A program made the position numbers and the translations under genes. From a virus, in IMG/VR virus record IMGVR_UViG_3300027971_000160, positions 1-30,536 of that record: a stretch of 30,536 nt of DNA; one strand, written 5' to 3'. Positions 2,757-30,536 of the stretch are shown here, in pieces; within the stretch, counting starts at the first letter, position 1, and every line of letters begins with the position of its first letter. Under the pieces are notes generated by a model that worked only from the letters and a program-made list of their open reading frames with translations, searched no databases and was not told where the DNA came from.

Positions 2757-3961
2757 TAAGTCAGTTGTGAATTGTATGAATAAGTTCTTTCGATGTTGAC
2801 GGTTTCACGAATCAACCCATCAACGCGTCGTTGTTTTTGAATCGATGAATTGTTCGTGACCTTCACTGGTTCGAACGCACCTGGGGTGACTTCAAGGTAA
2901 ACCTTTGGTGATTCGTACAAATCACGAACCAACCAATTTTGAACCTCGGGTGAAATCCAATCGGAATTCAAAACAAGGGTGTCGGTGGTGTACTTATTGT
3001 AAACCATTTGTTCACCCGAATAAAGAGAATAGTTCCAATTCGTTCCATCCCATCGACCACGTTCACGTTGATAGTCATTCATTTGAATGTTGCTCGAATC
3101 AATCGACACAAGCGTGAATGTGAAGGAATCCCAACCGCCCAACTTGTTCAACCAGTGAAGTCGGCGTGTTTCGTATCGATGACATTCGGTGTCCATGTAA
3201 AATATAAATGCTTCGGTGAATCCTGAATTCGTTCCCGTGTCAAGACCTTGAACTAAAATTTTATAGCACCCACAATTTTGGAAATCGAGCGCGGTCACGG
3301 TCGTGTTGGCAATCAAGTTTTGCGGGGATGCGTCAATCACCACCACGCGGTTGAACGACAAGGTTGTCGAATAACTTGTAATTAATGTTCCTCCTATTGT
3401 GTACAAATCTAAATAAAACGTGATGCCAGGATTCGAGTTCGTCAAGAATGTCAGGAACGCCGATTCGTAAAGTCCGACAAAATACTTATTCGCCCGTGGA
3501 AAATCCGTCAAGAATTTTATGTTCCCTGAATTCGGATTCGCTCTTGAAACCATCCAATCCAAATAATCGTAATTGATAAAGTCGGGGTGACGAAGCGAAG
3601 CATTCCATCCGACCGATGCCGACCCAGTCGCAAAGACACCCGACAACGCGGGCGGTGTTCCGTACCTTTCGTAAACACGAATGTTTACAAACGCGAACGC
3701 GGGGTCGTAGTAAGTTAGCAACGCGCCCGTTGTCACCATCTCGCTTGTAAGTAAACAACGAAGGTCACCGCTTGCGTCAAACTTCGCGTAATTGGAAACT
3801 TCATTGAACACCTGATGTGTCGAAACCAATGAACCGTCGACGTAAAGTTCAACAATAAAGCTGAAGTTCGGTTGCGCCGTTTGGTCACTGGAGAAAGTCC
3901 AAATGTACGGGTTCACCGCTGGTTGAAATCGTTGTGGTTGTTGGTGTATAGTTACTGCCAT
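2756..3961 (-). CDS. Virion structural protein (401 aa), tail module
   Basis: The 401-residue protein overlaps the HK97 gp10-like gene upstream by 10 bases and touches the 770-residue tail gene downstream. It is beta-rich (repeated V-x-I-Y and T-x-L type strands), contains CGCY and a later conserved-looking segment rich in Trp and Arg (MDTECHRYETRRLHWLNKLG, about residues 256-275). That Cys/Trp/Asn-Lys-Leu-Gly segment resembles a motif I associate with structural proteins of Bacteroidetes phages, but I cannot name the family. No enzymatic motif is visible. Placement suggests a tail tube, distal tail or hub component. Confidence 0.75.
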   Translation of the reverse strand: MAVTIHQQPQRFQPAVNPYIWTFSSDQTAQPNFSFIVELYVDGSLVSTHQVFNEVSNYAKFDASGDLRCLLTSEMVTTGALLTYYDPAFAFVNIRVYERYGTPPALSGVFATGSASVGWNASLRHPDFINYDYLDWMVSRANPNSGNIKFLTDFPRANKYFVGLYESAFLTFLTNSNPGITFYLDLYTIGGTLITSYSTTLSFNRVVVIDASPQNLIANTTVTALDFQNCGCYKILVQGLDTGTNSGFTEAFIFYMDTECHRYETRRLHWLNKLGGWDSFTFTLVSIDSSNIQMNDYQRERGRWDGTNWNYSLYSGEQMVYNKYTTDTLVLNSDWISPEVQNWLVRDLYESPKVYLEVTPGAFEPVKVTNNSSIQKQRRVDGLIRETVNIERTYSYNSQLT

Positions 3962-4479
3962 TCTTTTGTAGTTTTTTCAAAATTAACGGCGAAGGTCAAT
4001 CCCGTCACCGTTGCTAAATCTTTCGCAATTCTTTCGAGAACTTCTTCGGTAATGACATTGTCCACGATTCGTCGCGGTTTCAATCCATGTTGTTTTATCG
4101 AAGATGCAATCGCGAACGCGTGTTCCAAATCAACACCCGCCCATTCACCAATCGCTTTCGCCATGTTCCCCGAAACGAATGGGGTGCGGAATGAATACGA
4201 ACTGCCCTGGTTGTTTGTCCCCACCGCGTTCACCCCTTCGTCCATGAACTTGAAGTAAAAGTCCGCTTGAATTTCAAACGACAACGCACCCGTGGGAAAG
4301 TAGACAACCGATTGCGCTAACGCACCCGTGTGGTTGACCTTTTCTTTCACATAACTTCGAAGGTCGGCGGTGACTTGATTCCCAACATCAAGAATAAACT
4401 TTTCGTAAACATTCGCGGGTTCACTCGCTTCACTAACCGAAATCCCAAATGATTCAAGAAAATCGAATTCGTCAGCCAT
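3952..4479 (-). CDS. HK97 gp10-like head-tail joining/tail completion protein
   Basis: The 175-residue protein has a helical N-terminus, a central NHTGALAQSV motif and a segment ending in FKFMDEGVNAVG, followed by SYSFRTPFVSGNMAKAIGEW. The T-G-x-L-x-x-S-V then Y-x-x-F/Y-M-D-x-G-x-x pattern is characteristic of the HK97 gp10 family (minor tail or tail-completion proteins). Its start lies inside the end of the frameshifted tail-chaperone reading frame, which stops at 4472, so the two are translationally linked. Its downstream neighbours are tail proteins. Confidence 0.75.
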   Translation of the reverse strand: MADEFDFLESFGISVSEASEPANVYEKFILDVGNQVTADLRSYVKEKVNHTGALAQSVVYFPTGALSFEIQADFYFKFMDEGVNAVGTNNQGSSYSFRTPFVSGNMAKAIGEWAGVDLEHAFAIASSIKQHGLKPRRIVDNVITEEVLERIAKDLATVTGLTFAVNFEKTTKEWQ

Positions 4480-4735
4480 GCTTACTTAGTATGTATTTTT
4501 GTTCGTCATCTAATTTGAAGTAGTTCAACCAAAATAAAGTTTTTATGTAAGGTTGTCGTGTGATTCCGTCAACAGTTGTTCCAAGGTCTTTTGCGAGCCG
4601 AAGGAGTAATCTTGTCCATACGAACCAGTCATCATCTTTAATTGTTGATTTATTGTCTTCTGTTCCATCATCATCCGAATCATCTGAATCCCCAAGATAG
4701 CGTTCTTCCTCTTTTCGTAATCGCGCAAAAAAAAA
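4472..4735 (-). CDS. -1 frameshift extension of the tail assembly chaperone (long form about 261 aa)
   Basis: From the T9 run at 4735-4727 the -1 frame is open to a TGA at 4474-4472. The extension begins ARLRKEEERYLGDSDDSDDD, an acidic linker. It continues with a helical domain containing DDWFVWTRLLLRLAKDLG and ends in LFWLNYFKLDDEQKYIL plus SKHG. This Trp/Leu/Tyr-rich helical end is far too protein-like to be a chance frame, and resembles the T part of G-T type chaperones, which recruits the tape measure. It fills the apparent 63-base gap between 4543 and 4479 and ends inside the next gene's start codon region. No separate start codon is needed: slippage of T-TTT-TTT joins it to codons 1-176 of the 237-residue protein. 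The dual product is predicted, not measured. Confidence 0.72.
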   Translation of the reverse strand, partial: FFFARLRKEEERYLGDSDDSDDDGTEDNKSTIKDDDWFVWTRLLLRLAKDLGTTVDGITRQPYIKTLFWLNYFKLDDEQKYILSKHG

Positions 4736-5256
4736 CCGAAGAAGTCCAAGAATTCTTTGCCGTCGAAATTCTCCTTGAAAATTTTATATCTCTTTTCATT
4801 TGGGTTGATGACCTTTCCCCTTGCGTCTTCCTGACAATAAAGCATCCCTTCTTCGACATAGCAAATCGCAATCGCTTTAACGGGATCGGATGCGATGTCT
4901 TCAATAAGTTTCAAATCAATGATTTGACCCGTTTCGATTGCTCGAATGTCGGTGTCAAAAACATAGTTCACGCCGTCGATGGTCACCTTTCCTTTGGGTT
5001 CTTCGTAATTGTATTTTGACAACATTTCAAATAACGCGTTGCTTGATTTGTTGATGTCATCGATGCAACCCCGTTTGATTTCCTTCACTGGGACATCCGA
5101 AAAGATGGAAAGGATTTGACACCTGAATTCAATCATTCCAAGCAAATCTTCTTCGCTTATGTCCTTAATGTTTTCCGTAATCAACAACCATTTTGCCAAT
5201 TGGTCAGGTCGGCAATCGCTGACCGAAGACGGTAGTTTTATTGTAATGTTTTTCAT
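4543..5256 (-). CDS. Tail assembly chaperone-like protein, zero-frame product (237 aa)
   Basis: The zero-frame product starts at 5256 (overlapping the terminase stop by 4 bases) and ends at 4543. The sequence is helical and acidic, with a phenylalanine-rich stretch (LDFFGFF) encoded over a run of nine T residues (minus strand 4735-4727). In siphophages the gene ahead of the tail proteins makes a short chaperone and, by -1 slippage, a longer one (lambda gpG/gpGT model). The T9 run is phased as T-TTT-TTT in the zero frame, the canonical arrangement, and the -1 frame stays open to 4472. Unlike lambda G, the zero frame runs some 60 codons past the slip site, so two different C-termini are encoded over the same DNA. 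Confidence 0.7.
   Translation of the reverse strand: MKNITIKLPSSVSDCRPDQLAKWLLITENIKDISEEDLLGMIEFRCQILSIFSDVPVKEIKRGCIDDINKSSNALFEMLSKYNYEEPKGKVTIDGVNYVFDTDIRAIETGQIIDLKLIEDIASDPVKAIAICYVEEGMLYCQEDARGKVINPNEKRYKIFKENFDGKEFLDFFGFFLRDYEKRKNAILGIQMIRMMMEQKTINQQLKMMTGSYGQDYSFGSQKTLEQLLTESHDNLT
4727..4735 (-). promoter_or_regulatory. T9 slippery site for -1 ribosomal frameshifting
   Basis: The plus strand shows nine A residues, so the mRNA carries U9. In the zero frame the codons read GGT TTT TTT TTG, which places a perfect X-XXY-YYZ heptamer (T-TTT-TTT) at 4735-4729. Slipping back one base enters the long open -1 frame. I did not identify a definite downstream pseudoknot. A run of nine identical bases could also give transcriptional slippage. 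Confidence 0.65.
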
Positions 5257-6455
5257 AATCGTAAGGATTGATATTTCCCTTTGTGTTTGTTCGCTTTAAT
5301 CGAATGCCATGCCAACGCCAACGACATGACCCCATCGTCATGCATCCCCACTGGTGCGCTATATTGAACACCTCGGGTGTTTGGATTGTAAATATAAGTA
5401 AAACTTTCGAGTTCATCAACCAACCAACCCACGTCGTTGATTCCGATGGTTCGTTGTTCGAATGCCAACGCAAGGTCTTCAATCAATATCGGTTTCGATT
5501 TGGATGTGGTCACGAATGGAACAACCTTGGTCGGATGCATTTTGTGAAGCATTTCGTAAAACACGTCACCTTGGTTGTTGACTTCGACCGTGGTGATTAC
5601 ATTGTACTTACGAATCAAGTCAGCCACCTTGTCAATGATTCGCGACCAATCGTCGTGACGCCATCTTTCAACGTGAACCATTTTGCCTTGTTCATTCAGG
5701 ATGGTCAACACCGTGTAATCGTCAGCGCGTCCGATGTCAAGACCTCCGTAAGTTCGCGACGTGCGTTCCCCTTTACCGATGCTTTGACGAACATCCTTGA
5801 ACAACCCGCTCGCATTGTCGATAAATTCCGCAAGGTATTCTTGACGGTAAATGTGGTCGGGCAATGAGCGTTTCCTTTCTTCAAGTTCCTTCGGGTGAAT
5901 CATGGGGTTGTCGTACGAAGTAAAATGAAAGTAACGGTAACGGTCATCGTAGTTCGGTTGCATACATACGCGGTGAAAATGATTCTTTCCTTTCGGCGTT
6001 GAAATGAAGATGACCTTCTTTCCCTTGACCATGACCGTCGCGGACAAAACTTCATCCCACAATTCTCCACGGGTAAACGCGAATTCATCAATCACCATGT
6101 AGTCGAATGTATTTCCCCGAATGTTGTCAGGTCTTTCCCCTGAAAAGAATTCGATGGATGAACCGAACCCAGTGACCAACAAGTCCGACTTATTGAATTC
6201 GAACAACCCCGACTTCGCGACGGCGCGTTCAAGTTCCGCGAATACCTTCTTGCCTTGTTTGTACACGGGCGTGACCCATGCAATTTTGCAACCCTTGTCA
6301 TTGATTGCCCAATAAAGTAGTTGGTTGATTCCGAGTAATGTCTTTCCGAATTGCCGTCCGATGTTTAATGCAAAATACTTTTCGCTCCCATGGTTGATGG
6401 CGTTATGAATCTCGAGTTGCTTGACGTGTGGTTTGTAACCCTTAATCGTTGACAT
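5253..6455 (-). CDS. terL: Terminase large subunit (ATPase and packaging nuclease)
   Basis: The 400-residue protein is the DNA packaging motor. Visible motifs from the chosen ATG at 6455 are Walker A GRQFGKT (33-39), Walker B YMVIDE (119-124) and a coupling-type motif ISTPKGKNH (151-159). The C-terminal RNase H-like nuclease has GGLDIGRADDYT with acidic D240, EVNNQGD near 291-297, and MHDDGVMSLALAW with D373/D374. The frame is open further upstream to 6563, but starting there would overlap the small subunit by over 120 bases. The ATG at 6455 gives a 14-base overlap and begins just ahead of the family's N-terminal adenine-binding region, so I chose it. It lies directly after the small subunit and before the tail chaperone. 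Confidence 0.95.
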   Translation of the reverse strand: MSTIKGYKPHVKQLEIHNAINHGSEKYFALNIGRQFGKTLLGINQLLYWAINDKGCKIAWVTPVYKQGKKVFAELERAVAKSGLFEFNKSDLLVTGFGSSIEFFSGERPDNIRGNTFDYMVIDEFAFTRGELWDEVLSATVMVKGKKVIFISTPKGKNHFHRVCMQPNYDDRYRYFHFTSYDNPMIHPKELEERKRSLPDHIYRQEYLAEFIDNASGLFKDVRQSIGKGERTSRTYGGLDIGRADDYTVLTILNEQGKMVHVERWRHDDWSRIIDKVADLIRKYNVITTVEVNNQGDVFYEMLHKMHPTKVVPFVTTSKSKPILIEDLALAFEQRTIGINDVGWLVDELESFTYIYNPNTRGVQYSAPVGMHDDGVMSLALAWHSIKANKHKGKYQSLRL

Positions 6456-6849
6456 CGAAATCGAATCTTTCAACCGTTCGGGTTTCGACTTGTTGGCGGT
6501 CGTGCATCCCAAGTTTGTTCTTCGCATAGAAAATCCCCTTGCCTTCGTTCGCGACGATGTCACGCGCCAATGAGTTGAACAAATCGTCTATTCCTTTTAT
6601 AGTGTCAAACAATGGATGTGATTCGTCTTTCATCGCAATGTACCAATTCCCCCTGGTATAGAAATCAAAGTGTTCCCTTCGAAGCCAGTGAAGAAGAAAA
6701 TAAGACACGGTCGGAATGTGACGTTCCTTGACTTGCTTCACCCCTGAATTCGTGGCAATCTCTTTTGTCGAAGCGATGCAATAATCACAATAGCGATAAG
6801 CCATTTCAAGAAGTTCATCCTTATCAATGTTTTTGTGTTTGTTTGCCAT
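6442..6849 (-). CDS. terS: Terminase small subunit
   Basis: The 135-residue protein lies immediately upstream of, and overlaps, the large terminase. The N-terminus (DELLEMAYRYCDYCIASTKE) is helical, as in DNA-recognition domains of small subunits. The centre is aromatic (YFLLHWLRREHFDFYTRGNW), followed by a helical oligomerisation-type segment (LFNSLARDIVANEGKGIFYA) and the NKLGMHDRQQVET tail, which resembles the end of other small terminases that describe a 'K-x-x-gy-x-d-k' motif. Its job would be to recognise the packaging site and hand DNA to the large subunit. Confidence rests on both sequence pattern and position. Confidence 0.8.
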   Translation of the reverse strand: MANKHKNIDKDELLEMAYRYCDYCIASTKEIATNSGVKQVKERHIPTVSYFLLHWLRREHFDFYTRGNWYIAMKDESHPLFDTIKGIDDLFNSLARDIVANEGKGIFYAKNKLGMHDRQQVETRTVERFDFDVND

Positions 6850-17475: not shown

Positions 17476-17577
17476 AAGAAAAACACTTAATGAAGGTGAA
17501 AAATGCTTAATTGAGCTATGATAAACGGACAAAATCCGATTACGACATACAATATTATCACAAAAAAAAATAAGGAA

Positions 17578-20184: not shown

Positions 20185-20368
20185 TGTCGTCTTGTTGTTG
20201 AAAATACATTTCCGTGAAAATTTGATAAAGGTTGTAAAAAAATAAAGCGAATCCCATTGCTTTCAAATAAAAAGATTCTTCGAACCACATCAAAAATGCG
20301 GTGATGAATGAACAAATAAAATACATCATTCCAAGTTGACGGAGGTGGTTGTGTTTAATCATTTTCAA
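20174..20368 (-). CDS. Small membrane protein, lysis cassette (64 aa)
   Basis: The 64-residue protein has two hydrophobic stretches (LGMMYFICSFITAFLMWF and LKAMGFALFFYNLYQIF), separated by an EESFY turn, and an acidic end (QQQDDNEE). Position directly before the holin, with 11 bases of overlap, suggests a holin partner or antiholin. No motif identifies it, so the lysis role is inferred from context. Confidence 0.7.
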   Translation of the reverse strand: MKMIKHNHLRQLGMMYFICSFITAFLMWFEESFYLKAMGFALFFYNLYQIFTEMYFQQQDDNEE

Positions 20369-20819
20369 AATTATAGTTGTCCATAGGAATTGCGCACCAA
20401 TCTTCGTTATCGTACACGTTCATCGCAATGTTCATTGTCCAGCCAGCCGTGACGTCGTGACTTCGGTTGATAAATGGGGATGTTGAAATTGAACCTTCGA
20501 CATCCAAGAATTCTTCGAATCTCCATTGCTTCAAAGTCGTGTGTATGTCTTTGCAAATGGACAAACAATCGGAATGTATTTCGTTAATTTGTCGGTATTC
20601 CTGAAGATTATATTTGTCAGCAATGGAAATGATTGCGTTGACTTGAACGCCGAAGTCGACAAGCGAACCAGGTTGCAAGGTCACAACCATCAACGGGTAA
20701 TCAATAGCATCACGCGAAACCGCATCCAAATAGTCACCTTGAAAGAAGCTATTTATTTGTCGATGCTCGTTTGCTATTATTTCGAATTCCCGCATCAATG
20801 CGTTTAATGTTCTGTCCAT
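20355..20819 (-). CDS. Head-tail connector/tail terminator-like protein (154 aa)
   Basis: The 154-residue protein opens MDRTLNALMREFEIIANEHR, has a mid-region strand AIDYPLMVVTLQPGSL, an alpha-helical IADKYNLQEYRQINEIHSDC and a C-terminal segment WTMNIAMNVYDNEDWCAIP. The combination of a long helix and strands ending in 'D-W-C-x-I-P' is one I associate with neck or tail-terminator proteins of Bacteroidetes phages. It lies between the connector gene and the lysis cassette. Specific role is uncertain. Confidence 0.65.
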   Translation of the reverse strand: MDRTLNALMREFEIIANEHRQINSFFQGDYLDAVSRDAIDYPLMVVTLQPGSLVDFGVQVNAIISIADKYNLQEYRQINEIHSDCLSICKDIHTTLKQWRFEEFLDVEGSISTSPFINRSHDVTAGWTMNIAMNVYDNEDWCAIPMDNYNFEND

Positions 20820-20877
20820 TTGTCAAATAAGTTTTAAGTTTTTCGATGTCCTTTTTATTCGCGACAAATTTTTTCAT
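20749..20877 (-). CDS. Possible small protein bridging connector and neck genes (42 aa)
   Basis: An ATG at 20877 overlaps the connector stop (ATGA) and opens a 42-codon frame to a TAG at 20749, overlapping the next gene by about 70 bases. The protein is basic, starting MKKFVANKKDIEKLKTYLTN and ending in IRNNSKRASTNK. The stop/start coupling is in its favour; the long overlap is against it. The 154-residue gene might instead start later. Confidence 0.4.
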   Translation of the reverse strand: MKKFVANKKDIEKLKTYLTNGQNIKRIDAGIRNNSKRASTNK

Positions 20878-21407
20878 ACAATCCATTGTAAAGGTGAATA
20901 ACCCGTTTTATCTTTCGTCACGTTGGTGTGACACAATGCGGGTGAACCATTCGGTGAACCACAACAATCAATGTACTCAGGAAAATGGTCACCGTTGTCA
21001 TCCATTAAATAACCAATTAATCGTTCTTTGTAAAACTGTGCATCTTTCAAAAGTTGATCCCGAAACACATAGGTATCGGGGGTGTTATTCGCTTGAATGT
21101 TTTCATCCCCAACACGACCAACTGATTTGTTGGTAAGCTTTTCGTTTAATAGTAACGCGCAACGATAGTCAACGTAAGCCACCAAACAAGGAACAACGTA
21201 ATCATTCATTAATGTAAGGTAGTTTGGATTCCAAGTGTTAGTCGCAACGCGTTGAAGTAACGCTCGGTAAAGCGGTGAACCCAACGCGGGTTGAACATTG
21301 ATGTCCTGACTTCGACGAATCGCAACCGCGAGAATCTTCGTGTCGGTGTTTTGGTGAATCAAACCCAATTTCTTCAGGTTTTCCACGGAAAGTAAATAGT
21401 TGTTCAT
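20874..21407 (-). CDS. Head-tail connector-like structural protein (177 aa)
   Basis: From the ATG at 21407 (overlapping the portal stop) the protein begins MNNYLLSVENLKKLGLIHQN and is mainly helical: DTKILAVAIRRSQDINVQPA, LGSPLYRALLQRVATN and LTLMNDYVVPCLVAYVDYRC. This layout (short helical protein after the portal, 'I-x-x-A-Q-x-x-x-I-x-P-x-L-G-x-x-L-Y') fits DUF6712-type head-tail connectors. The Cys-containing C-terminal loop (CCGSPNGSPALC) is unusual. An earlier Met at 21449 is possible but lies inside the portal end. Confidence 0.75.
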   Translation of the reverse strand: MNNYLLSVENLKKLGLIHQNTDTKILAVAIRRSQDINVQPALGSPLYRALLQRVATNTWNPNYLTLMNDYVVPCLVAYVDYRCALLLNEKLTNKSVGRVGDENIQANNTPDTYVFRDQLLKDAQFYKERLIGYLMDDNGDHFPEYIDCCGSPNGSPALCHTNVTKDKTGYSPLQWIV

Positions 21408-23365
21408 CATTGTCTTATTACTAATTGTTGAACCCATTCGTGTCGACAATAGGGTGTTGTTATTTTTGTTCGTGGATTCGTATATTCACCCCCACGATAA
21501 CGCCAAACGTCACGGTCAACGCGGTAACTGATTGCGTTTATGTCATCGCGTGAATACATTCGATTCAATTCTAAAAGTTTTATGCAAAATGGACGCGATG
21601 TTGTCTTCACTGGGGGAACGTCAGGACGTGTTCGGTACGAATAACGAACTTCAAACCTTTCCAATGGAATGTCAATGGCGTCCATTACGGACTTTCCCAA
21701 GCTATTCAATTCACCTCCTTGATTAATCATGTTCAAACCATCCAATTTTGCAATTGTTTCCGTTACGTTCTTTGTTGACGTGTTCAAAGCTTTCGCGATG
21801 CTTGGTGCATCTTCTCCGTCGTTCAATAGCTTCAAAATATCTTTGTCAGCACCCGTCAAGACCGCTTTGATTTCTCCGATTTTGTCGAATAGTTCCGTGC
21901 TTCGAGCAAACACGAATTCGCTTGGTGTGTTCCAATCAATTTTCTCGGTGTGAATGACCCTAAATTTTTTTTTATCTTCACCGTATTGCGCGAACACATC
22001 GATTTCATCTTCGTGTGAACACATTGAAAACGCCGTAGGTGTCATTCCGACAATCCTTCGGGCGGTTGCATCGTCGATGGTTGGGAATGAAGCAAGAACA
22101 ATTGACAATGCGCTTTCAGGCGTCAACAATCCTTCTTTAATTTTTGCAACCACATCAACAAGTGATGCGATTTGCGCTCCATTCAAGGCGCTTTTTGCCA
22201 CGTCAACAACGTCGGCGGTGGTGGTTGGTGTGTTCATGTCAGGCGTTGCGGTTGGTGTTGGTGTAATTACATCCTTTGGTAAAGGTGTCACGTCGCGAAG
22301 TTTAACTTTACCCGTGAAACCGCTTAATTCAACCATCATGTTCAACATCCATTCAACCCTTCTTTGACGCGCGTCAACGTAGGTTGATTTGAAAATGTTA
22401 AACAAGTCATCCGATTCCGCTGAATTAAACGAACCTTCGACTGTCACCCCGAACAATTGCGGTGATGTGATTGCGTGTGCAACCAAAATGTTTTGTTGAA
22501 CTGATTTCTCAGTCATCAAATAACGCTGGTCAAGGTTGTTGCCATTCAATGACATCACGGTGGGTGCTTCGTCTTTGCCGTTCGAGAATGTTAAAATAAT
22601 TTCCCCCGCATCTTCGACCGATTGCGAGCGACCCTTTACGTCCGATTTTATTCGATTCAATTCTTCGGTGGTTTCGGGGTAACCTGAAGGAAAGTTTATT
22701 AATGTTCCCGACTTGAAGCCGTTTTGCAATTCGTACATATGGAATTTCGAAATGTCCACGTCCGTTTGAATTGCCGTGATGCCACCGTAGTAGGTTGGTT
22801 TTGGGTAAATTCCAAGTTCTTTTCGACCGCGCAAATGTGGGTCTTTGTAATATAGCATAAACGAACCAACCGTGACGGTGTCATCGTATGCTTGAATAAC
22901 ACGAAGATTCGTTTTCTCGGGGGATTGGTTTAACGCCGTCCAATCGTCGGAAATGTAGTACGTTCTTTCATCCATTGACGCCCGTATGGAATCAAGACCA
23001 ATGTGTTCCCAACGAACAACGCGTGTTCCTTCTTTGTTCCAAGTTCCCTTTACGGCAAACCCGCCAAACATTTCACCATCGAATGCCATGCGTTCGGCAA
23101 GTTCATTCATGTCGAAGTCGCTCCACTGGTTGTCGATGAATGGTTGCAACATTCCCGAAACAATTTCCACACCACCACCCGCGATGTAATGCGTTTTATT
23201 TTTTATGATTCCTTGATGGTATGCGCTACCATTGTAAAGGTCAATTAAAAAAAATGGGTAATCGTTCTTTTTTCCCCATTTCACAAACCCTTGTGAACGG
23301 TCTTTTTCTTCGTCAGGTTTTTGAAAATCTTTTCGAAATGAAATCGATGTAAGCTTGTTATTCAT
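21407..23365 (-). CDS. Portal protein with C-terminal winged-helix and MuF-like domain (652 aa)
   Basis: The start at 23365 (MNNKLTSISFRKDFQKPDEE) is preferred because the upstream frame before it reads like leader. Portal features follow: GGFAVKGTW-like core, then VEGSFNSAESDDLFNIFKST and YVDARQRRVEWMLNMM, typical of portal proteins. The core ends near residue 385; a Thr/Pro-rich linker (TPTPTATPDMNTPTTTA) follows, then a helical repeat region. A winged-helix-like segment lies near 520-570 (GEDAPSIAKALNTSTKNVTE). The last 70 residues (TSRPFCIKLLELNRMYSRDD, then CRHEWVQQL) match a domain often fused to or encoded next to portals in Bacteroidetes phages, somewhat like the MuF head-morphogenesis domain. 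Fusion in a single chain is the notable feature. Confidence 0.85.
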   Translation of the reverse strand: MNNKLTSISFRKDFQKPDEEKDRSQGFVKWGKKNDYPFFLIDLYNGSAYHQGIIKNKTHYIAGGGVEIVSGMLQPFIDNQWSDFDMNELAERMAFDGEMFGGFAVKGTWNKEGTRVVRWEHIGLDSIRASMDERTYYISDDWTALNQSPEKTNLRVIQAYDDTVTVGSFMLYYKDPHLRGRKELGIYPKPTYYGGITAIQTDVDISKFHMYELQNGFKSGTLINFPSGYPETTEELNRIKSDVKGRSQSVEDAGEIILTFSNGKDEAPTVMSLNGNNLDQRYLMTEKSVQQNILVAHAITSPQLFGVTVEGSFNSAESDDLFNIFKSTYVDARQRRVEWMLNMMVELSGFTGKVKLRDVTPLPKDVITPTPTATPDMNTPTTTADVVDVAKSALNGAQIASLVDVVAKIKEGLLTPESALSIVLASFPTIDDATARRIVGMTPTAFSMCSHEDEIDVFAQYGEDKKKFRVIHTEKIDWNTPSEFVFARSTELFDKIGEIKAVLTGADKDILKLLNDGEDAPSIAKALNTSTKNVTETIAKLDGLNMINQGGELNSLGKSVMDAIDIPLERFEVRYSYRTRPDVPPVKTTSRPFCIKLLELNRMYSRDDINAISYRVDRDVWRYRGGEYTNPRTKITTPYCRHEWVQQLVIRQ

Positions 23366-23726
23366 AGATGTTAAAGTAAATAGGAGAATCGTATTCGTAA
23401 CTTGGAGAATCCGCTTCGACAACGTGCGCGCGTCCCGTTTCAACAAGTCCTTGCGAATTCACGGGATCTAAATTACCAGGGGAAGATTGCTGAAAAATGT
23501 TGTAAACGTAAAAACCATCGTAGATGAAATTTACATCGACGCCATCCGTCAAAACGAATTCATCGAATCGTTGGGTGGTCGTTGAAACATTCGTTAACAC
23601 ACACGTTTGGGTGTTGAACGATTGTTCGTGAATGAATTCAAATAGATAGTTCGGATTCGGGATTGTTGTCAATTCCGTCACCGTCACTATTAATGGCGTT
23701 GCTCCGTTTCTTTGTATTTTTAACAT
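23358..23726 (-). CDS. Small structural protein (122 aa) next to portal
   Basis: The 122-residue protein is beta-rich (MLKIQRNGATPLIVTVTELT, then VDVNFIYDGFYVYNIFQ) with no motif I recognise. It overlaps the portal start by 8 bases and the end of the 80-residue gene by 89 bases. In this position, between capsid and portal, it may be a decoration, head-stabilising or connector protein. Function unknown. Confidence 0.7.
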   Translation of the reverse strand: MLKIQRNGATPLIVTVTELTTIPNPNYLFEFIHEQSFNTQTCVLTNVSTTTQRFDEFVLTDGVDVNFIYDGFYVYNIFQQSSPGNLDPVNSQGLVETGRAHVVEADSPSYEYDSPIYFNIYE

Positions 23727-23880
23727 TGATTTTCTTTACTAAATTAGGTTCTTCAAGTTCAAAAATGTCCATCACTCCCAACGACAATAATAATTCCCCG
23801 TTGTTTTCTTCGACAAGGAACAAACGTCCCATCAATGGTGACCAAACTTTGCATCCGATAAATTCTTTTTTTATTTTCAT
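23638..23880 (-). CDS. Small structural/unknown protein (80 aa)
   Basis: The 80-residue protein starts MKIKKEFIGCKVWSPLMGRL and carries LLLSLGVMDIFELEEP, an N-terminal pattern I associate with small proteins in Bacteroidetes phage head modules. The last 29 residues (SNAINSDGDGIDNNPESELS region) run over the start of the next gene in another frame, suggesting that an earlier stop was lost and the C-terminus extended. The start lies 14 bases after a terminator hairpin. Confidence 0.6.
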   Translation of the reverse strand: MKIKKEFIGCKVWSPLMGRLFLVEENNGELLLSLGVMDIFELEEPNLVKKINVKNTKKRSNAINSDGDGIDNNPESELSI

Positions 23881-23893
23881 TTCGGCAAGTTAC

Positions 23894-23932
23894 AAAAAAA
23901 GGGGATAGGTTCAACCCCACCCCCTTAAAAAA
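23894..23932 (-). terminator. Intrinsic terminator (GGGG hairpin with T7)
   Basis: On the minus strand AAGGGGGTGGG pairs with CCTATCCCC around a GTTGAA loop, followed by T7 (plus-strand A7 at 23894-23900). The stem has nine pairs counting G-U. It sits after the 177-residue structural gene (stop 23945) and 14 bases before the next gene, so it should reduce transcription of the portal operon relative to the capsid genes. Confidence 0.78.
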
Positions 23933-23944
23933 GTTAGTAATTAA

Positions 23945-24478
23945 TTAGATAGATGGTGATTGCTGACCAATCAATGTCGCGTAAAGCACGGGTGACACGT
24001 CAGGCAATTCATCATTCTCCATTCCTTTCAACACGATAACGTGTCCTTTACGGTCGCTTTTCAAAATCCCTGAAGTGTATTCATTCGCGTCAGCTACCTG
24101 AAGACCTTCACCAAGACCAAGGGCAACGATTGTTCCGTCAGCATTTTCAACCAAACACATTACTTCGTTTTGTGCAAGCAAATGAATTTCGCTTCTTAAT
24201 TCTTTCGAATCCGATGCCAAAATCATGTTCAAAGTTTGTTCGTACCACAACGTCCCGTTGTTTTTGTCAACGCGAATGGGTGCAGTGTACGAAGATAAAT
24301 TTGATTTTAATTTGTAAAGGAAAGTTTCACCCGCCACCACAAGGGACATAAGTTCATTTGCTCCCGAAACCACCGCGCCTGAAGTTGCTCCCAAAGGAAA
24401 CAACAATACGCTTTTGATTCCGCCTTTTCCGTTGGTACACGTTCTGTCGTTGTACCCAGTTGTCATTTCACAAGCCAT
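23945..24478 (-). CDS. Virion structural protein (177 aa) downstream of major capsid
   Basis: The 177-residue protein starts MACEMTTGYNDRTCTNGKGG and continues IKSVLLFPLGA, a pattern seen in structural proteins of Bacteroidetes phages. The rest is beta-rich, with APIRVDKNNGTLWYEQTLNM and LRSEIHLLAQNEVMCLVENA, resembling tail-tube or decoration folds. It lies between two terminator-type hairpins, directly after the capsid gene, so it is probably made in large amount. Whether it is the tail tube or a head decoration cannot be decided from this view. Confidence 0.7.
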   Translation of the reverse strand: MACEMTTGYNDRTCTNGKGGIKSVLLFPLGATSGAVVSGANELMSLVVAGETFLYKLKSNLSSYTAPIRVDKNNGTLWYEQTLNMILASDSKELRSEIHLLAQNEVMCLVENADGTIVALGLGEGLQVADANEYTSGILKSDRKGHVIVLKGMENDELPDVSPVLYATLIGQQSPSI

Positions 24479-24494
24479 GTTTTATATTTTAATA

Positions 24495-24516
24495 AAGGGG
24501 TGATTTCCCACCCCTT
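24495..24516 (-). terminator. Terminator-like hairpin after the major capsid gene
   Basis: AAGGGGTG and CACCCCTT form perfect 8-base arms around a 6-base loop in the gap between the capsid stop (24530) and the next start (24478). On the minus strand the following bases are TATTAAAATATAAAAC, AU-rich rather than a clean T tract, so read-through is likely. It could also protect the capsid mRNA 3' end. Confidence 0.6.
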
Positions 24517-24529
24517 AATGATTAATTGA

Positions 24530-25495
24530 TTAAATTAAACCTTCGAATGTTCCGACTTGATTCAAGAATGGAACTTGAACACCCGCACGGAATTTTGAAC
24601 GTAAATAAATTACATCGTCATCGAATGAATACCACATATCGTAAGATTCGAAGTCAGACGTTAAGTCAGTTCCGAAGAAGAAATGTGATGCACGACCCGT
24701 GTAGATTTTTTTAGTTCCATTCAAACCGTTCACACGAACAACTCTCATGTTTGTACCTGGTAAAAGGATTTCGTTCAATGTTCCGATTTCATTTACATTG
24801 AAATGGTAAAGGTTTAAGTCAACCAAGTTTTTCAACAAGAAATTGAAATTCTCACGACCCGTGAAACAAATGAAATCTTCACCTTCAGCGATGTTCGATG
24901 GCGTGTTGGTAAACGCTTCGTAAAAGATGTCGAACGCGTTGGTTGCATCGATTGTAGTTGGACCGAATGTTTGATTCAAGTCAACGCATCCGTTCGCAAC
25001 GGTCAAGAATTGATTGAATCCATTCATGAAGGCAAGGTTACCCGTACCCGAAACTTTGTTACCTCTCCAAATCAATTTCTCCAATTCGAAAGAATGTAAT
25101 TTCAATAGGTAGTCAATCAATGTTTGTTCGAATGGCAAAGTTTTATCTTCAGCCATTGCACCTGGTCTAAGTGCCAATTGTGTCCAAAATCCCGCAAGGT
25201 CTTTTTGGCAAAATCTTTTTAAGTAACCGATTGTTTCAACGGAAATCGAACGGTCGGTGAAGATTGTGTCACCCGCTGGGGACATAGAACAATCACCAGT
25301 TTGATAAACGATTGAATCGTTCAACAATTTAAGGTCTTCAGTTCCTTTGATTCCTTGTTGGATTGCGATGTACTGAAGCGTTTGGGCTTCGGTCACCGAA
25401 CGGTGAATTAATTCTTCTCTTTGTTGGTCGATGTACGGAGAAAGTCCGTTTACATCATAGTCAAAATTTGACTTTACATAGTTTTTAATGCTCAT
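24530..25495 (-). CDS. Major capsid protein (321 aa)
   Basis: The 321-residue protein directly follows the protease and scaffold genes, in the order of HK97-type head modules. The N-terminus (MSIKNYVKSNFDYDVNGLSP) is followed by an alpha-helical stretch (IDQQREELIHRSVTEAQTLQ) and a long region with strands, ending RSKFRAGVQVPFLNQVGTFE. Such end sequences ('f-x-G-v-q') are typical of capsid proteins of this group. Size and position are the best evidence. There is no obvious N-terminal delta domain as in HK97, which agrees with a separate scaffold protein. Confidence 0.85.
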   Translation of the reverse strand: MSIKNYVKSNFDYDVNGLSPYIDQQREELIHRSVTEAQTLQYIAIQQGIKGTEDLKLLNDSIVYQTGDCSMSPAGDTIFTDRSISVETIGYLKRFCQKDLAGFWTQLALRPGAMAEDKTLPFEQTLIDYLLKLHSFELEKLIWRGNKVSGTGNLAFMNGFNQFLTVANGCVDLNQTFGPTTIDATNAFDIFYEAFTNTPSNIAEGEDFICFTGRENFNFLLKNLVDLNLYHFNVNEIGTLNEILLPGTNMRVVRVNGLNGTKKIYTGRASHFFFGTDLTSDFESYDMWYSFDDDVIYLRSKFRAGVQVPFLNQVGTFEGLI

Positions 25496-25498
25496 GGT

Positions 25499-26062
25499 TT
25501 ATATGTTTCTAAAGTTTTTCAAAAATAATTGTTTGGCTGTTAGGTTGCCAACCCTTGAAAATTTCTCGCTTTCTTTCGCTGGTTCGGATGGTTGCGCCTT
25601 GAAGCTTTCGAAGTCCGCTTTCAAAGATGCAATTGTTTCGTTTAGCGTTTTGTTGTTTTCGGAAATTGCATTCATCATTTCGGCAACCCCTTCGAGAACG
25701 GCTGTGAATGATTCAAGCTTTCCATTAACAATGGCTTCAACTTCTTCAGCTGACATTGATTGGTCAACTGGTGGTGTAACGTCATTATTTCCCCTTTCGT
25801 CAACCACTTCAGTAATGATTCCTTCAGCGTCAACGGTAACCGTAACACCTAAATAATCACCACCAAGGGCGTGTGTTCCTTCGGGTGCGGGGATGGAACC
25901 TGAATCGGTAACCACAAATAAAGGAAAACCAACTTCCAATGCTTCGAATTCAACGATGGTTGTTTCGTCAATCAATGTCGCTTGTTCAAATGTTTGGGGT
26001 GTCGCTTCAAATTTCGTTTTGAAATCGGAAAGAATCCCCATGATTTTATCGAATTTATTCAT
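25499..26062 (-). CDS. Head scaffold-like protein (187 aa)
   Basis: The 187-residue protein has an N-terminal segment MNKFDKIMGILSDFKTKFEA, an acidic middle (TVEADAEG and EVVDERGNNDVTPPVDQSMS), and a helical C-terminal half with ENNKTLNETIASLKADFESF and AKQLFLKNFRNI at the end. An acidic, helical, coiled-coil-prone protein between the protease and major capsid genes fits a scaffold. The C-terminal basic helix would be the usual capsid-binding part. It touches the capsid gene start (25495/25499). Confidence 0.78.
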   Translation of the reverse strand: MNKFDKIMGILSDFKTKFEATPQTFEQATLIDETTIVEFEALEVGFPLFVVTDSGSIPAPEGTHALGGDYLGVTVTVDAEGIITEVVDERGNNDVTPPVDQSMSAEEVEAIVNGKLESFTAVLEGVAEMMNAISENNKTLNETIASLKADFESFKAQPSEPAKESEKFSRVGNLTAKQLFLKNFRNI

Positions 26063-26079
26063 CTTAAAATTTTTCGTGT

Positions 26080-26694
26080 TTACTTATTATGTTTTGTTGT
26101 TCGGAATTTTATTCCTTGCAAAGCTTCAAGAATCGCTGACATCATTTGTTCTTCCGTCATTGTGCGCTTGGTGTCGATTAAATTGAACACACCTTCGATG
26201 CTGAATCCTTTGAACTTTCCTTTTTTCGCATCTTTCCAAAGTTGGTCGTCGTTTACTTTGTAGGACACCAACCACGAACCATCGTTCGCATCCTTGAACC
26301 TTTCGGGTGCGGTGAATCCACGTTCGTTGTCAATTTGGTAAGACATAATCATGTGTAACCCATCCACAACATTCTTCGAATTGTGTTCGATGTTTACGTT
26401 GTTGAAATTGTTTCTCCGAGCGTAATCAATCACGATGTCACGAATGGCGTCCTTCGTGAAAACAACGTAGTATTCTTCCTTGGTATTTTGGTCGAATCGA
26501 TAAATTGGTGTGTCGCTTGAAATGGCAATCCCAGTGATGACCATTTGTTCGTCGTTAAATTCGTATGCCATCTTGGAAAAGGTTTCAAAGTTCTTTTCGT
26601 GTGCGGGATATTCCACCAAAGAATTGAACGAAACCGTTGTTTCGGGATCATTTAAGTCGATGACGATTTCGTAAATTGGTAGGTCTTTTTTCAT
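26080..26694 (-). CDS. Prohead protease, XkdF-like serine protease (204 aa)
   Basis: The 204-residue protein matches the XkdF/peptidase S78_2 pattern: ITGIAISSDTPIYRFDQNTK, then VVFTKDAIRDIVIDYARRNN, FNNVNIEHN (H104) and later SWLVSYKVNDDQLWKDAKKG followed by KGFSIEGVFNLI. The mid His and the G-F-S-I-E-G motif are the usual conserved landmarks. It processes scaffold and capsid protein during head maturation, and the scaffold and capsid genes follow directly. Its start lies 26 bases from that of the opposite-strand glycosyltransferase gene. Confidence 0.85.
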   Translation of the reverse strand: MKKDLPIYEIVIDLNDPETTVSFNSLVEYPAHEKNFETFSKMAYEFNDEQMVITGIAISSDTPIYRFDQNTKEEYYVVFTKDAIRDIVIDYARRNNFNNVNIEHNSKNVVDGLHMIMSYQIDNERGFTAPERFKDANDGSWLVSYKVNDDQLWKDAKKGKFKGFSIEGVFNLIDTKRTMTEEQMMSAILEALQGIKFRTTKHNK

Positions 26695-26720
26695 ATTACT
26701 TTATTATGTATTTTTGTTCG

Positions 26721-27383
26721 ATGAATTTTGTTTACCCTTATCGAAGAAGTCGCAACGATTTCGACATTCTTCAATCAATGCGCTTTGTTGTCATGTCATT
26801 TCCTGAAGCATCCATCACCACGGTGGGTGACAAGGTCGAAGGAATCGACAACATCCCTTGCAAACAATTGAACAACATTCGGGGTGCGGACGTGACCAAC
26901 AAAATGTTGACGTATGCGCGTGAACGTGGTGGTGAATTTATCTACATGAACGATGACTTTTACGTTACGCCAAAACTTCGCGCCGACATTCCGATTCATT
27001 CAGGTGAATTGAAAATCGTTGACCAACATCCGAGCCATTACAAAATAGCGATGAAAAACACAATTGAATTGTTGAATAAATACGATTTGACAACATACAA
27101 TTTTGAAACGCATTCACCCATTCTAATTGATTCGGCAAAGCTGGTCACTTTATTCGATTCCCTTGATTGGCAAAATCACAATCATTTCATCAAGTCAATT
27201 TATTTGAATCACCATTTACCCGAGGAAATCCGTTTAGGTCACAACGTCAAGCTTCACATGGACAACATTCCAAAAGCTGAAGAATTACTTCGAACATACG
27301 GATGCTTTTCAACCAACGAAACATTCTTGACCCCTCGAGGTCGGTCATGGCTTACCAACTTGTTTTGGTTTCCTGAAGTTTGA
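26721..27383 (+). CDS. Stealth-like/GT-A glycosyltransferase on the opposite strand (220 aa)
   Basis: The only clear plus-strand gene. From the ATG at 26721 the protein begins MNFVYPYRRSRNDFDILQSM, with a conserved core GGEFIYMNDDFYVTPKL (NDD at 77-79), then YNFETHSPILIDSAKL (H131) and HNHFIKSIYLNHHLPEEIRL. The 'F-I-Y-x-N-D-D-x-x' motif is the CR2 signature of Stealth-type hexosamine phosphotransferases or related GT-A enzymes. The gene ends 32 bases inside the tape measure gene's 3' end and starts 26 bases from the protease start, so it fits tightly between two minus-strand genes. A TATTTTTG box 5 bases before the ATG would give an almost leaderless message. It is probably a cargo gene (moron). 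Confidence 0.82.
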   Translation: MNFVYPYRRSRNDFDILQSMRFVVMSFPEASITTVGDKVEGIDNIPCKQLNNIRGADVTNKMLTYARERGGEFIYMNDDFYVTPKLRADIPIHSGELKIVDQHPSHYKIAMKNTIELLNKYDLTTYNFETHSPILIDSAKLVTLFDSLDWQNHNHFIKSIYLNHHLPEEIRLGHNVKLHMDNIPKAEELLRTYGCFSTNETFLTPRGRSWLTNLFWFPEV

Positions 27384-30261
27384 CCTTGTTTTGTGTTTGA
27401 CTAATGTCGCTTTCCAAAACAAAAACTTGTGAAACGGGTGCTTGATTGACTGCATTTCCCAATAATCCCTCGGTTGATGTTCCATTGTTCGTTGGTGGTT
27501 GTGCGCTGAATGAAGATGCACCCGCGCCCGCCATACCACCACCACCACCGCCACCCGACAATGAAGGCATCGATGGTGCTGACCCCCCTTTGTATTGTGT
27601 TGACGCGATTGCTCCGATTTGTGCCAACCCCATTGCACCCGCTAACACCCCGAATGGAATTCCCAACGGAATACCACCGTTGTCGGCGATTGATTTTACA
27701 ATTGCGCTCGCGGTGTCAATGGTTGCCTGGGCGATTCGCAATGCTTTGTCGCGATTGAATTGCGCCTTCTTAATTTTTTCTTCTTCGTTGAACGCTTTCA
27801 ATTGGATTTGATATTTCGCAATGGCATATTTTTGAGTTATTTGATTTCGTTGTTCCTCCGTTAAATTAGTGTTTTCAAGTTCCGCTTTTTGTTTTTCATC
27901 CAGGTCAGCAAGGTCAGTTTCACGCGATGCCTGAATGGATGCCAATTTGTTTTCTTCGTATTGTTTTGCTATGTTGTTAATTTCCCCCAACTTGTCAACC
28001 ACTTGTTGTGCGGTTTCAATTCCTTTGGTCAATCCTTCGGTGTCTTCTTGGAATTTCTTTTTATTCGCTTCAGTTATTTTGTCATTCTTTTTCTTGTTGA
28101 TTTCGACAATTTTATTTGCGTAATCGGTTTCAAGTTTTTCCTGAGCTTTGAGATATTCTTCGTCACTAATCAAACCTTCTTGATGCGCTTCATTCAACGC
28201 TTGGATTTGTTTCTTTTGTTGGTCTTCGAATGCTTTCAATTCTTTGTCGTATTCGGATGCAACGGTTTGAAAGTATTGACCCAACAATTCCGCGCGTTTC
28301 AATTCTCGTTTCGCGGTGGCATCCAAAACGATTTGCGTTTTTTCCGTTTCAAGTTCCGCCATCTTTTGCGCCATCAATTCCTTTTCCTTGTCCGTCAGGT
28401 TGTTCACCCCATTAATCATGATTTCTTCAAGTTGCTTTCGATATTCTTCTTCCGACATTTTTTGTGTCAAGAACTTTTGGTCGAGCGCGTCGATTTCTTC
28501 TTTGTTTGCGGTTTGAATTAATTGGGTTCTCCAGTCGCCGAATTGTTCTTCGAGAATGGCGATTTGTTTCGCGCTCCCTTCTTCAAGGTTTTTCAACTTG
28601 GTGTTTTCAAGTTCTTCAAGAATTTTCCCTTCTTCTTCTACCGATGACTTGATGACCGACAATTGCGCCTTTCTTCTTTCCGCTTCGGATTTCGCGCTGT
28701 CTTCAGCGATTTTCTTTTGGTCTTCAGCGGACTTCTTTTTGATTTCTCTGATTTGCAATTCACCCCCATCAAGTTCGGATTGCATTTGGTCAACCGTCGA
28801 TTGAAGTTCTTCGATTCCTTTTTTGCCGTCTTTCTTAATTTCTTCGGTGTCGAAAATCAATCCCGCACCCCAATCCGCAATCCCCGAAATGCTACTATTT
28901 AATGCGCCCGCGAGATTCGTTCCTTTCAATCCTTGAATCGTTTCGTTCACCGCTTTGGTCGTTGACTTCGCGACTTCGGTAATGTCACTCATGATTGATT
29001 TAGCGTTGATGCTTCCAAGACCCAACGCCTTGGAAATTTCGTTTGCTCCTTTCAATGCGATGTCGATGGGCGCAACCAATAATCCAATCATTAACCCTTG
29101 GAATTTTTGCGTGAAGTTATTCGCCATTTTCATCAAGGAAATAATTCCCGCCGAAATGCCATCAATGGCATAGGCAATCCCCAAAGGAATAAGATTGGCA
29201 ACCGTACCAATCGCCTTCAAAATTTGTTTCGTTAAATTGAAGTTACGAATCGATGCTTTTTCACTGCCTTGTTGAATGGCGATTTGCGCTTCAAGTTGTG
29301 CCTTCGCATCCTTCAGGGCGACGCGTTGTTTCTCCATTCGTATCTTCAAAATTTGTTCTTCGGATTTTCCCTGAAGCTTCAAAGAATTTTCTTGATATTG
29401 GAAATTGTCGACTTCTTTTTTTGATTGTTCCGCACGCGACGTAGTTATTGCTAATTGGTCTTTCATTCCTGAAGTCACACCACTAACCGCCGACTTGATG
29501 TCATCCCAGTAAGCGACAACCAAACCGAGCGCGACAATAAGCAAACCAATTCCCGTGGATGCAATCGCCAACTTCAATCCTTTCATCAAACCCGTGGATG
29601 TTCCGACAACCATTTGGTAGCTTTTTTCAGCAATGGTTCGTGCCGTAATTGAAGCAACCGCGCTTTCACCATCCTTCACGGTCAACGCCGTTCGTAACTG
29701 AATTCCAAGAATGGAATCCGAATTCAAATTGTTGGCAATGGTTTGAACCGCATTCACCAACCCTTGAACCGCTTGAAGCTTTACCATCGTTTGAACCAAT
29801 GCTTCATTCTCCACACCCGCCAACGCCATTGCCGACTGCATTCCTTGGAAGACCGATGCACCCGTGGAAATTCCCGCCATTGCTGTGTCAAGACCTTTGA
29901 AGTCGGATGACAACGCTTTGGTTTGCGCTTTCAAATCACCAATTTCATCCTTTAATGAAGATGCATTTTTCAAAGCTTGTGAACCGATGGGCGTTTCAAC
30001 ACCCGCCTGAATGGCGATGTTTTGATATTCCTTCATCGTCTTGGTCATTTCTCGCATCGACAACCCACCCGCTTTCATCTTTGCGTCAAGGTCAGCAAGG
30101 TTCTTTTCGAGCGCATCCATGCCCGTTCCTGAAGATGCCGTTTGTTGGGTTGCTTTCAAATCTTTGTTGAAATCATTCAACGCCTTGTCGGTTGCTTTGA
30201 TGTCGTTCGCGGAATTTCCCGTGTTGACCTTCAGCGTAAAAACTGCTTCTTTATTCGCCAT
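27352..30261 (-). CDS. Tape measure protein (969 aa)
   Basis: The 969-residue protein has the usual features: a long helical N-terminus (EKNLADLDAKMKAGGLSMRE and following), hydrophobic segments at about residues 230-255 and 350-400 (ASTGIGLLIVALGLVVAYWD, LIPLGIAYAIDGISAGIISL), and a charged coiled-coil from about 470 to 830 rich in Glu, Lys and Gln. The C-terminus has a glycine run and PSMPSLSGGGGGGG-type repeats. Tape measure length sets tail length; about 1.5 angstrom per residue would give a tail of roughly 145 nm (an estimate). The fibre-like gene crossing the join lies just upstream and the Stealth-like gene is convergent at the 3' end. Confidence 0.9.
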   Translation of the reverse strand: MANKEAVFTLKVNTGNSANDIKATDKALNDFNKDLKATQQTASSGTGMDALEKNLADLDAKMKAGGLSMREMTKTMKEYQNIAIQAGVETPIGSQALKNASSLKDEIGDLKAQTKALSSDFKGLDTAMAGISTGASVFQGMQSAMALAGVENEALVQTMVKLQAVQGLVNAVQTIANNLNSDSILGIQLRTALTVKDGESAVASITARTIAEKSYQMVVGTSTGLMKGLKLAIASTGIGLLIVALGLVVAYWDDIKSAVSGVTSGMKDQLAITTSRAEQSKKEVDNFQYQENSLKLQGKSEEQILKIRMEKQRVALKDAKAQLEAQIAIQQGSEKASIRNFNLTKQILKAIGTVANLIPLGIAYAIDGISAGIISLMKMANNFTQKFQGLMIGLLVAPIDIALKGANEISKALGLGSINAKSIMSDITEVAKSTTKAVNETIQGLKGTNLAGALNSSISGIADWGAGLIFDTEEIKKDGKKGIEELQSTVDQMQSELDGGELQIREIKKKSAEDQKKIAEDSAKSEAERRKAQLSVIKSSVEEEGKILEELENTKLKNLEEGSAKQIAILEEQFGDWRTQLIQTANKEEIDALDQKFLTQKMSEEEYRKQLEEIMINGVNNLTDKEKELMAQKMAELETEKTQIVLDATAKRELKRAELLGQYFQTVASEYDKELKAFEDQQKKQIQALNEAHQEGLISDEEYLKAQEKLETDYANKIVEINKKKNDKITEANKKKFQEDTEGLTKGIETAQQVVDKLGEINNIAKQYEENKLASIQASRETDLADLDEKQKAELENTNLTEEQRNQITQKYAIAKYQIQLKAFNEEEKIKKAQFNRDKALRIAQATIDTASAIVKSIADNGGIPLGIPFGVLAGAMGLAQIGAIASTQYKGGSAPSMPSLSGGGGGGGMAGAGASSFSAQPPTNNGTSTEGLLGNAVNQAPVSQVFVLESDISQTQNKVKLQETKTSW

Positions 30262-30263
30262 AA

Positions 30264-30536
30264 TTAGTTGATTCGATTAATTGTTGCAATAACTGACGGA
30301 ATCGCGGGATGAATTGAACTTCCATTTTCATAAATCAATTCGATTGTGTTTGTCGTTGTCGCCCACATAATTTCGACATAATCACCTGAATTCAATCGAA
30401 TGAAAAAATTCCACGCTGGATTGTGGTAATGGTCGGTTTGAATTGTCACCTTGGTATTTGAATTGTCAATGTCAACACCATTCACACGAAACCAAATGTC
30501 AACGTGTTGTGTTGAATCACCAGACGTTCTATAAAT
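30264..30536 (-). CDS. Tail/fibre-like protein with C1q/TNF-like domain, C-terminal part
   Basis: This is the C-terminal piece of the 195-residue gene whose start is at 441. It is open at the right end and stops at 30264, two bases before the tape measure start at 30261. Bases 30411-30536 duplicate 1-126, so 90 codons are present here, of which 48 lie outside the repeat. The sequence NFFIRLNSGDYVEIMWATTT and SVIATINRI is the end of a jelly-roll, like the G and H strands of a C1q/TNF-type domain. The two copies differ by one codon (Ala here, Glu at position 4-6). Confidence 0.75.
   Translation of the reverse strand: MYRTSGDSTQHVDIWFRVNGVDIDNSNTKVTIQTDHYHNPAWNFFIRLNSGDYVEIMWATTTNTIELIYENGSSIHPAIPSVIATINRIN

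Follow-up and report, generated by a model that had tools for sequence, protein, structure and literature searches.

The tail genes G/GT of phage lambda and gp13/14 of HK97 each specify a short product and a -1 fusion product with a common N-terminus, and in both phages the pair belongs to the structural operon, ahead of the tape measure gene. In chaperones of this type G binds the tape measure protein and T the tail tube, and the proteins are missing from the virion. The slip sites are GGGAAAG and GGGAAAA, respectively, and the zero frame runs on past them for 18 nt in lambda G and for 19 nt in HK97 gp13 (with the heptamer nearest the gene end taken as the HK97 slip site). Phage P2 makes its tail fusion protein E+E' by a -1 slip at a T-rich site, T_TTT_TTG, and its E zero frame ends 21 nt further on. 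The overlap averages 26 nt in annotated SEA-PHAGES genes, and PRFect, one of whose features is how far away the zero-frame stop lies, finds few sites beyond 51 nt (PMC10885494). Nine-base homopolymers that join two frames occur in Thermus dnaX (9A) and in IS elements (9A/9T), and a homopolymer run joins two frames by transcriptional slippage in Shigella mxiE; unlike the presumed role of the locus described here, none of these is a tail gene.

The locus lies in the window, the whole 30,536-nt stretch of viral DNA that was analysed, and is a variant of lambda G/GT-type frameshifting with a far longer double use of DNA (~190 nt) than lambda, P2 or HK97. Like the lambda and HK97 pairs it would yield a short and a -1 fusion product with a common N-terminus, and it lies upstream of the tape measure gene on the same strand, though 4.6-6.2 kb from it in the window and relatives; its slip site is T-rich, as in P2, and is a nine-base homopolymer, as in dnaX and the IS elements. 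It departs from lambda and HK97 in slipping at T9, in adjoining the terminase large subunit gene (TerL) rather than the tape measure gene, and in having no detectable sequence homology to either. The reading that we favor, with a probability of roughly 0.78, is that of a G/GT-type pair with a doubly selected overlap of ~61 codons, most likely a tail-assembly chaperone, whose expression, product ratio and role we infer from sequence. In outline, the locus would belong to a Bacteroidota phage and be a gene of the G/GT type: most translation would stay in the zero frame and give the 237-aa protein G, while at T9 a minority product would shift to the -1 frame and give a fusion, GT, ending in an acidic linker and a small helical T domain. 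The likeliest role of the two proteins would be in tail assembly, as a pair of chaperones that work with the tape measure protein.

Read base by base, the 237-codon zero-frame ORF occupies minus-strand positions 5256-4543, and its product comprises a conserved domain (residues 1-177), a predicted helix to ~209 and a low-confidence tail (210-237). The T9 slip run (4735-4727, minus strand) is read GGT TTT TTT TTG, and its heptamer T_TTT_TTT (4735-4729) falls at codons 174-176, the phase given in the preliminary description. The -1 frame that continues from it, the T extension (4735-4472, minus strand), encodes an FFFAR helix, then an acidic linker and then a W/L/Y-rich helical domain; the octapeptide DDWFVWTR is present in its translation. 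It is 87 codons long and is closed by a TGA at 4474-4472, which overlaps the ATG (4479) of the next structural gene (3952-4479, minus strand, 175 aa; ATGGCTGA); it thus fills the 63-base gap 3' of the zero-frame stop, and the earlier estimate of some 85 codons open to 4472 holds. The zero frame runs 61 codons beyond the slip heptamer (about 60 had been claimed), making a dual-coded stretch of ~61 codons past the T run (4726-4543, minus strand). It ends at a TAA (4545-4543, minus strand) placed inside the -1 codons TAC ATA AAA, the Y-I-K of QPYIK.

The relatives speak for the generality of this arrangement. A protein search of IMG/VR yielded 25 loci, and profiles of the N-terminal part and of the -1 domain extended these to 183; the 110 that are distinct and complete form the set for tests of selection. 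All 182 fetched relatives that match in the -1 frame have T9 in identical register (two seeming exceptions are truncated alignments, and both carry T9). The slip codons TTT, TTT and TTG are each invariant (110/110), yet TTC makes up about half of the Phe codons. The -1 ORF retains the pattern FFFAR...E..RY, acidic linker, EWFTWT, QPY[VI]KTLFW, EQ.YI, and its stop lies at or over the start of the next gene across relatives, which are arranged like the window. The zero frame stays free of stops in each of the 110 distinct sequences, and nearly all relatives close it at the same position. Close relatives were checked for loss of the -1 frame, which had been named beforehand as an observation that would count against frameshifting, and no such loss was seen; the comparison of related phages instead finds the T run and both frames conserved, and the proposal of two C-termini encoded over the same DNA is supported by the conservation of both frames and the selection on them. 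One of the two loci with truncated alignments (L123:2565-3000) has its zero frame disrupted upstream of the run, with part of G lost, and represents an assembly error or a defective phage. The sole match in a bacterial genome (RGVP01000218.1) comes from the MAG of an unclassified bacterium; the matching contig, 3.3 kb long, is probably one of a phage that was binned along.

A BFVD structure search with G led to gp38 of Nonlabens phage P12024S, whose G domain is homologous to that of the window (hhalign E=9.6e-11). P12024S and P12024L resemble the window in having TerL directly upstream, a T9 run and a -1 domain of helical type, annotated in P12024S as gp39; they differ from it in an overlap of only ~26 codons and in being annotated as two unrelated hypothetical genes. 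Searches from P12024S gp38 yielded 223 loci, 184 of them distinct and with both parts; the run is T9 in 168 and T10 in 16, and all have the -1 domain. The overlap spans at least 55 codons in 181 of the 184, short ones (18-27 codons) being confined to the Nonlabens group and one relative. At the level of sequence, this distant family shares the design of the window family: slip run, -1 domain and long overlap. Between the two families the T domains give an in-register but weak alignment (hhalign probability 18%, E=0.0013), and they are likely to be homologous. In P12024S (NC_018271, 23136-23830), gp38 and gp39, which are assigned to PHROG 32199 and 38404 (function unknown), very likely form a single pair joined by frameshifting. 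The BFVD list also named a protein of Flavobacterium phage 6H (taken as gp10 by its length), which was dropped for want of a clear slip site.

The manner in which the frames are joined admits two mechanisms. The preliminary description spoke of programmed -1 slippage; a conserved -1 transition at T9 bears this out, but the ribosomal nature of the slip is less secure, because RNA-polymerase slippage becomes a serious rival in view of a run that is always at least nine long and of the lack of conserved RNA structure. Ribosomal -1 slippage of the lambda G/GT and P2 E/E' kind, here of tRNA-Phe on T_TTT_TTT, has perhaps an even chance of being the mechanism. The heptamer is in zero-frame register in every member of both families and most known tail-gene frameshifts are ribosomal, but U_UUU_UUU is far less shift-prone than A_AAA_AAG in E. 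coli (PMC5009743), and T7 and T8 forms are absent from all members. Nor does RNA folding disclose a conserved stimulator: RNAalifold places 0 pairs, folding of the window gave z=+1.8, and a search of Rfam produced no match. Consensus folding does not support a stem-loop (AGCG...CGCT) noticed by eye downstream of the T run. A stimulatory RNA structure is usual, but not obligatory, in ribosomal -1 frameshifting.

For slippage by RNA polymerase, to which we assign somewhat less than an even chance, an extra U incorporated at T9/T10 (U10 in the transcript) would put ribosomes in the -1 frame without any ribosomal slip. A one-base insertion yields exactly that frame; slippage on A/T runs mostly produces insertions, and the RNA:DNA hybrid has a length of nine (PMC5574713). 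Selection against A/T runs is seen at length nine in many bacterial genomes, and 9A/9T runs serve the expression of IS elements (PMC1088944). In the T9 of the whole window family and the T9 or T10 of the distant one there is no shorter form, yet a ribosome could make do with seven Ts (T_TTT_TTT); moreover, the two families build their nine-long run from different codons, GGT TTT TTT TTG as against NTT TTT TTT Txx. The absence of conserved RNA structure downstream also accords with a shift made by polymerase. On the other side, each T has a coding reason, in hydrophobic zero-frame codons and in TTN as the first -1 codon, and any T9 includes T_TTT_TTT, so that phase cannot separate the two mechanisms. 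A mixture of ribosomal and polymerase slippage is possible. Tentatively, and with the odds tilted against the proposal as a whole, we would suggest that one group among the Bacteroidota phages, large and mostly uncultured, makes a G/GT tail-chaperone pair via RNA-polymerase slippage at an obligatory T9/T10, with the overlap stretched to 55-100 codons and with order and disorder traded between the frames. Among the papers covered by a literature search, none describes a tail chaperone made by transcriptional slippage.

Purifying selection acts on both reading frames of the shared DNA; the long extension of the zero frame is itself selected, including the position of its stop. Four tests bear this out, among them the codon-position pattern described below. 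The first is based on tree simulations, which allow for the relatedness of the sequences and in which codons evolved with the -1 protein alone constrained (200 runs). A zero-frame stop within the overlap was expected in a mean of 94 of the 110 sequences (minimum 65) and is observed in none; no simulation left the zero frame open in all 110, and the openness of the zero frame is thus not due to chance. (Synonymous reshuffling of the -1 frame of single sequences leaves the zero frame open in a median of ~18%.) The distant family behaves similarly, with zero-frame stops expected in 38.9 of 39 sequences and seen in none, and an accident of codon bias is rejected on simulation in both families. The zero-frame stop is formed on the -1 Val/Ile codon of QPY[VI], which is GTG, GTA or ATA in 106 of 110 sequences; these three codons make up a fraction of at most 0.64 in other -1 Val/Ile columns, and the stop-forming state has survived no fewer than 17 third-base changes along the tree. 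Synonymous (third-base) changes in the -1 frame amount to 0.35 and 0.39 of expectation in the first two parts of the overlap and to 0.68 in the last, and rebound to 1.19 right past the zero-frame stop; the depression ends where the zero frame ends. The null for these rates already forbids zero-frame stops and takes its calibration, within the same loci, from the part read in the zero frame only and from the next gene; the pairwise counts ignore relatedness.

Two other accounts of the extension have to be weighed against these numbers. That the zero frame is kept open for retention of ribosomes on the mRNA and translational coupling to the next gene, rather than for the tail, is unlikely, although it has points in its favor: the zero-frame stop lies ~60-70 nt ahead of the next start, and constraint in the second half of the overlap is weaker and mostly a matter of openness. 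Yet the second half still shows only 0.68 of the expected changes under a null in which stops are already forbidden. That the extension is a mere by-product of -1 coding, without a function of its own, is highly improbable: its last ~25 residues are poorly conserved, as this account would have it, but the avoidance of stops in both families, the end of synonymous suppression at the zero-frame stop and the selection on the stop codon itself all contradict it. Conserved Gly211 and Gly214 of the zero frame fit that account in being shadows of -1 Trp codons, and are discounted as evidence of function. The notion that the T domain is a separate gene with a start of its own, as annotated for P12024S gp39, which begins at an ATG in the -1 frame, can hardly be upheld, since no ATG, GTG or TTG precedes the folded -1 domain in the -1 ORF of any of the 110 window-family relatives, which leaves a frameshifted fusion as the only plausible route of expression.

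For a doubly coded and doubly selected overlap, AlphaFold models (of moderate confidence, pLDDT about 70) suggest a division of labor. The zero-frame product is predicted to be helical to residue 209, with pLDDT <50 from 210 onward; the -1 extension is predicted to have pLDDT <50 at residues 15-32 and helices at 31-86. One frame is thus predicted to be folded where the other is linker or tail, and the prediction matches the profile of selection: the fastest codon position is the third base of the zero frame in the linker and the third base of the -1 frame in the T domain. Early in the overlap, the zero frame would contribute the last helix of G and the -1 frame a flexible acidic linker; late in the overlap, the -1 frame would encode the folded T domain and the zero frame a low-confidence tail that has to remain open and to end at a fixed position.

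The G/GT-like layout, the flanking TerL gene and a tape measure gene downstream on the same strand together suggest a tail-assembly chaperone, and by this analogy the gene probably is one. The original designation as a tail chaperone gene fits the architecture and the gene order, but no named chaperone family bears it out: searches of Pfam, PHROG, NCBIfam and PDB gave no named tail-chaperone match for G or T. The phrog_166 'tail protein' profile appears only at E ~0.04, and neither a PDB fold search with G nor a viral-library search with the T domain returned anything significant. G also matches PDB entries in a short, repeat-like fashion, but this is put down to chance, as the match fails when assessed stretch by stretch. 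TerL is directly upstream of G/T (5253-6563, minus strand; phrog_2 E=1.2e-47, Terminase_6N E=9.1e-18), and the tape measure protein gene is at 27352-30261 on the minus strand (phrog_24676 E=3.9e-15), a position ~4.6 kb downstream from G/T, provided that the end repeat joins the record into a circle. Taking the window and its relatives together, the order is TerL, G/T, three to four genes, then the tape measure gene, 4.6-6.2 kb downstream of G/T on the same strand. Relatives of a primase-like gene point to a Bacteroidota host.

The arrangement matters in several respects. A long, doubly selected overlap within a phage structural gene is repeated in two very distant families and in hundreds of phages; a literature search that took in only a minority of subscription papers found no description of such a case. 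The overlap is invisible to annotation, which lists both parts as unknown or misses the -1 part, and such genes will probably escape frameshift finders that are tuned for short overlaps. The further question is raised whether RNA polymerase, instead of the ribosome, can set the proportions of a phage tail, and the isolated phages P12024S and P12024L provide a system in which it can be tested.

Some features of the record itself may be added. Its last 121 bases (30416-30536) repeat bases 6-126, and because of this end repeat it probably represents a complete genome of ~30.4 kb, circular or circularly permuted, wrapping between a 770-aa gene and the tape measure gene. The gene order at 20355-30261 is unusual (tape measure, then protease, capsid-like protein and portal, with TerL and G/T lying across the early genes). 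A second T9 run, at 17562-17570 on the minus strand, is seemingly intergenic, and an A9 run at 21965-21973 (minus strand) in the portal gene ORF (21407-23446) is a possible further slippage site.
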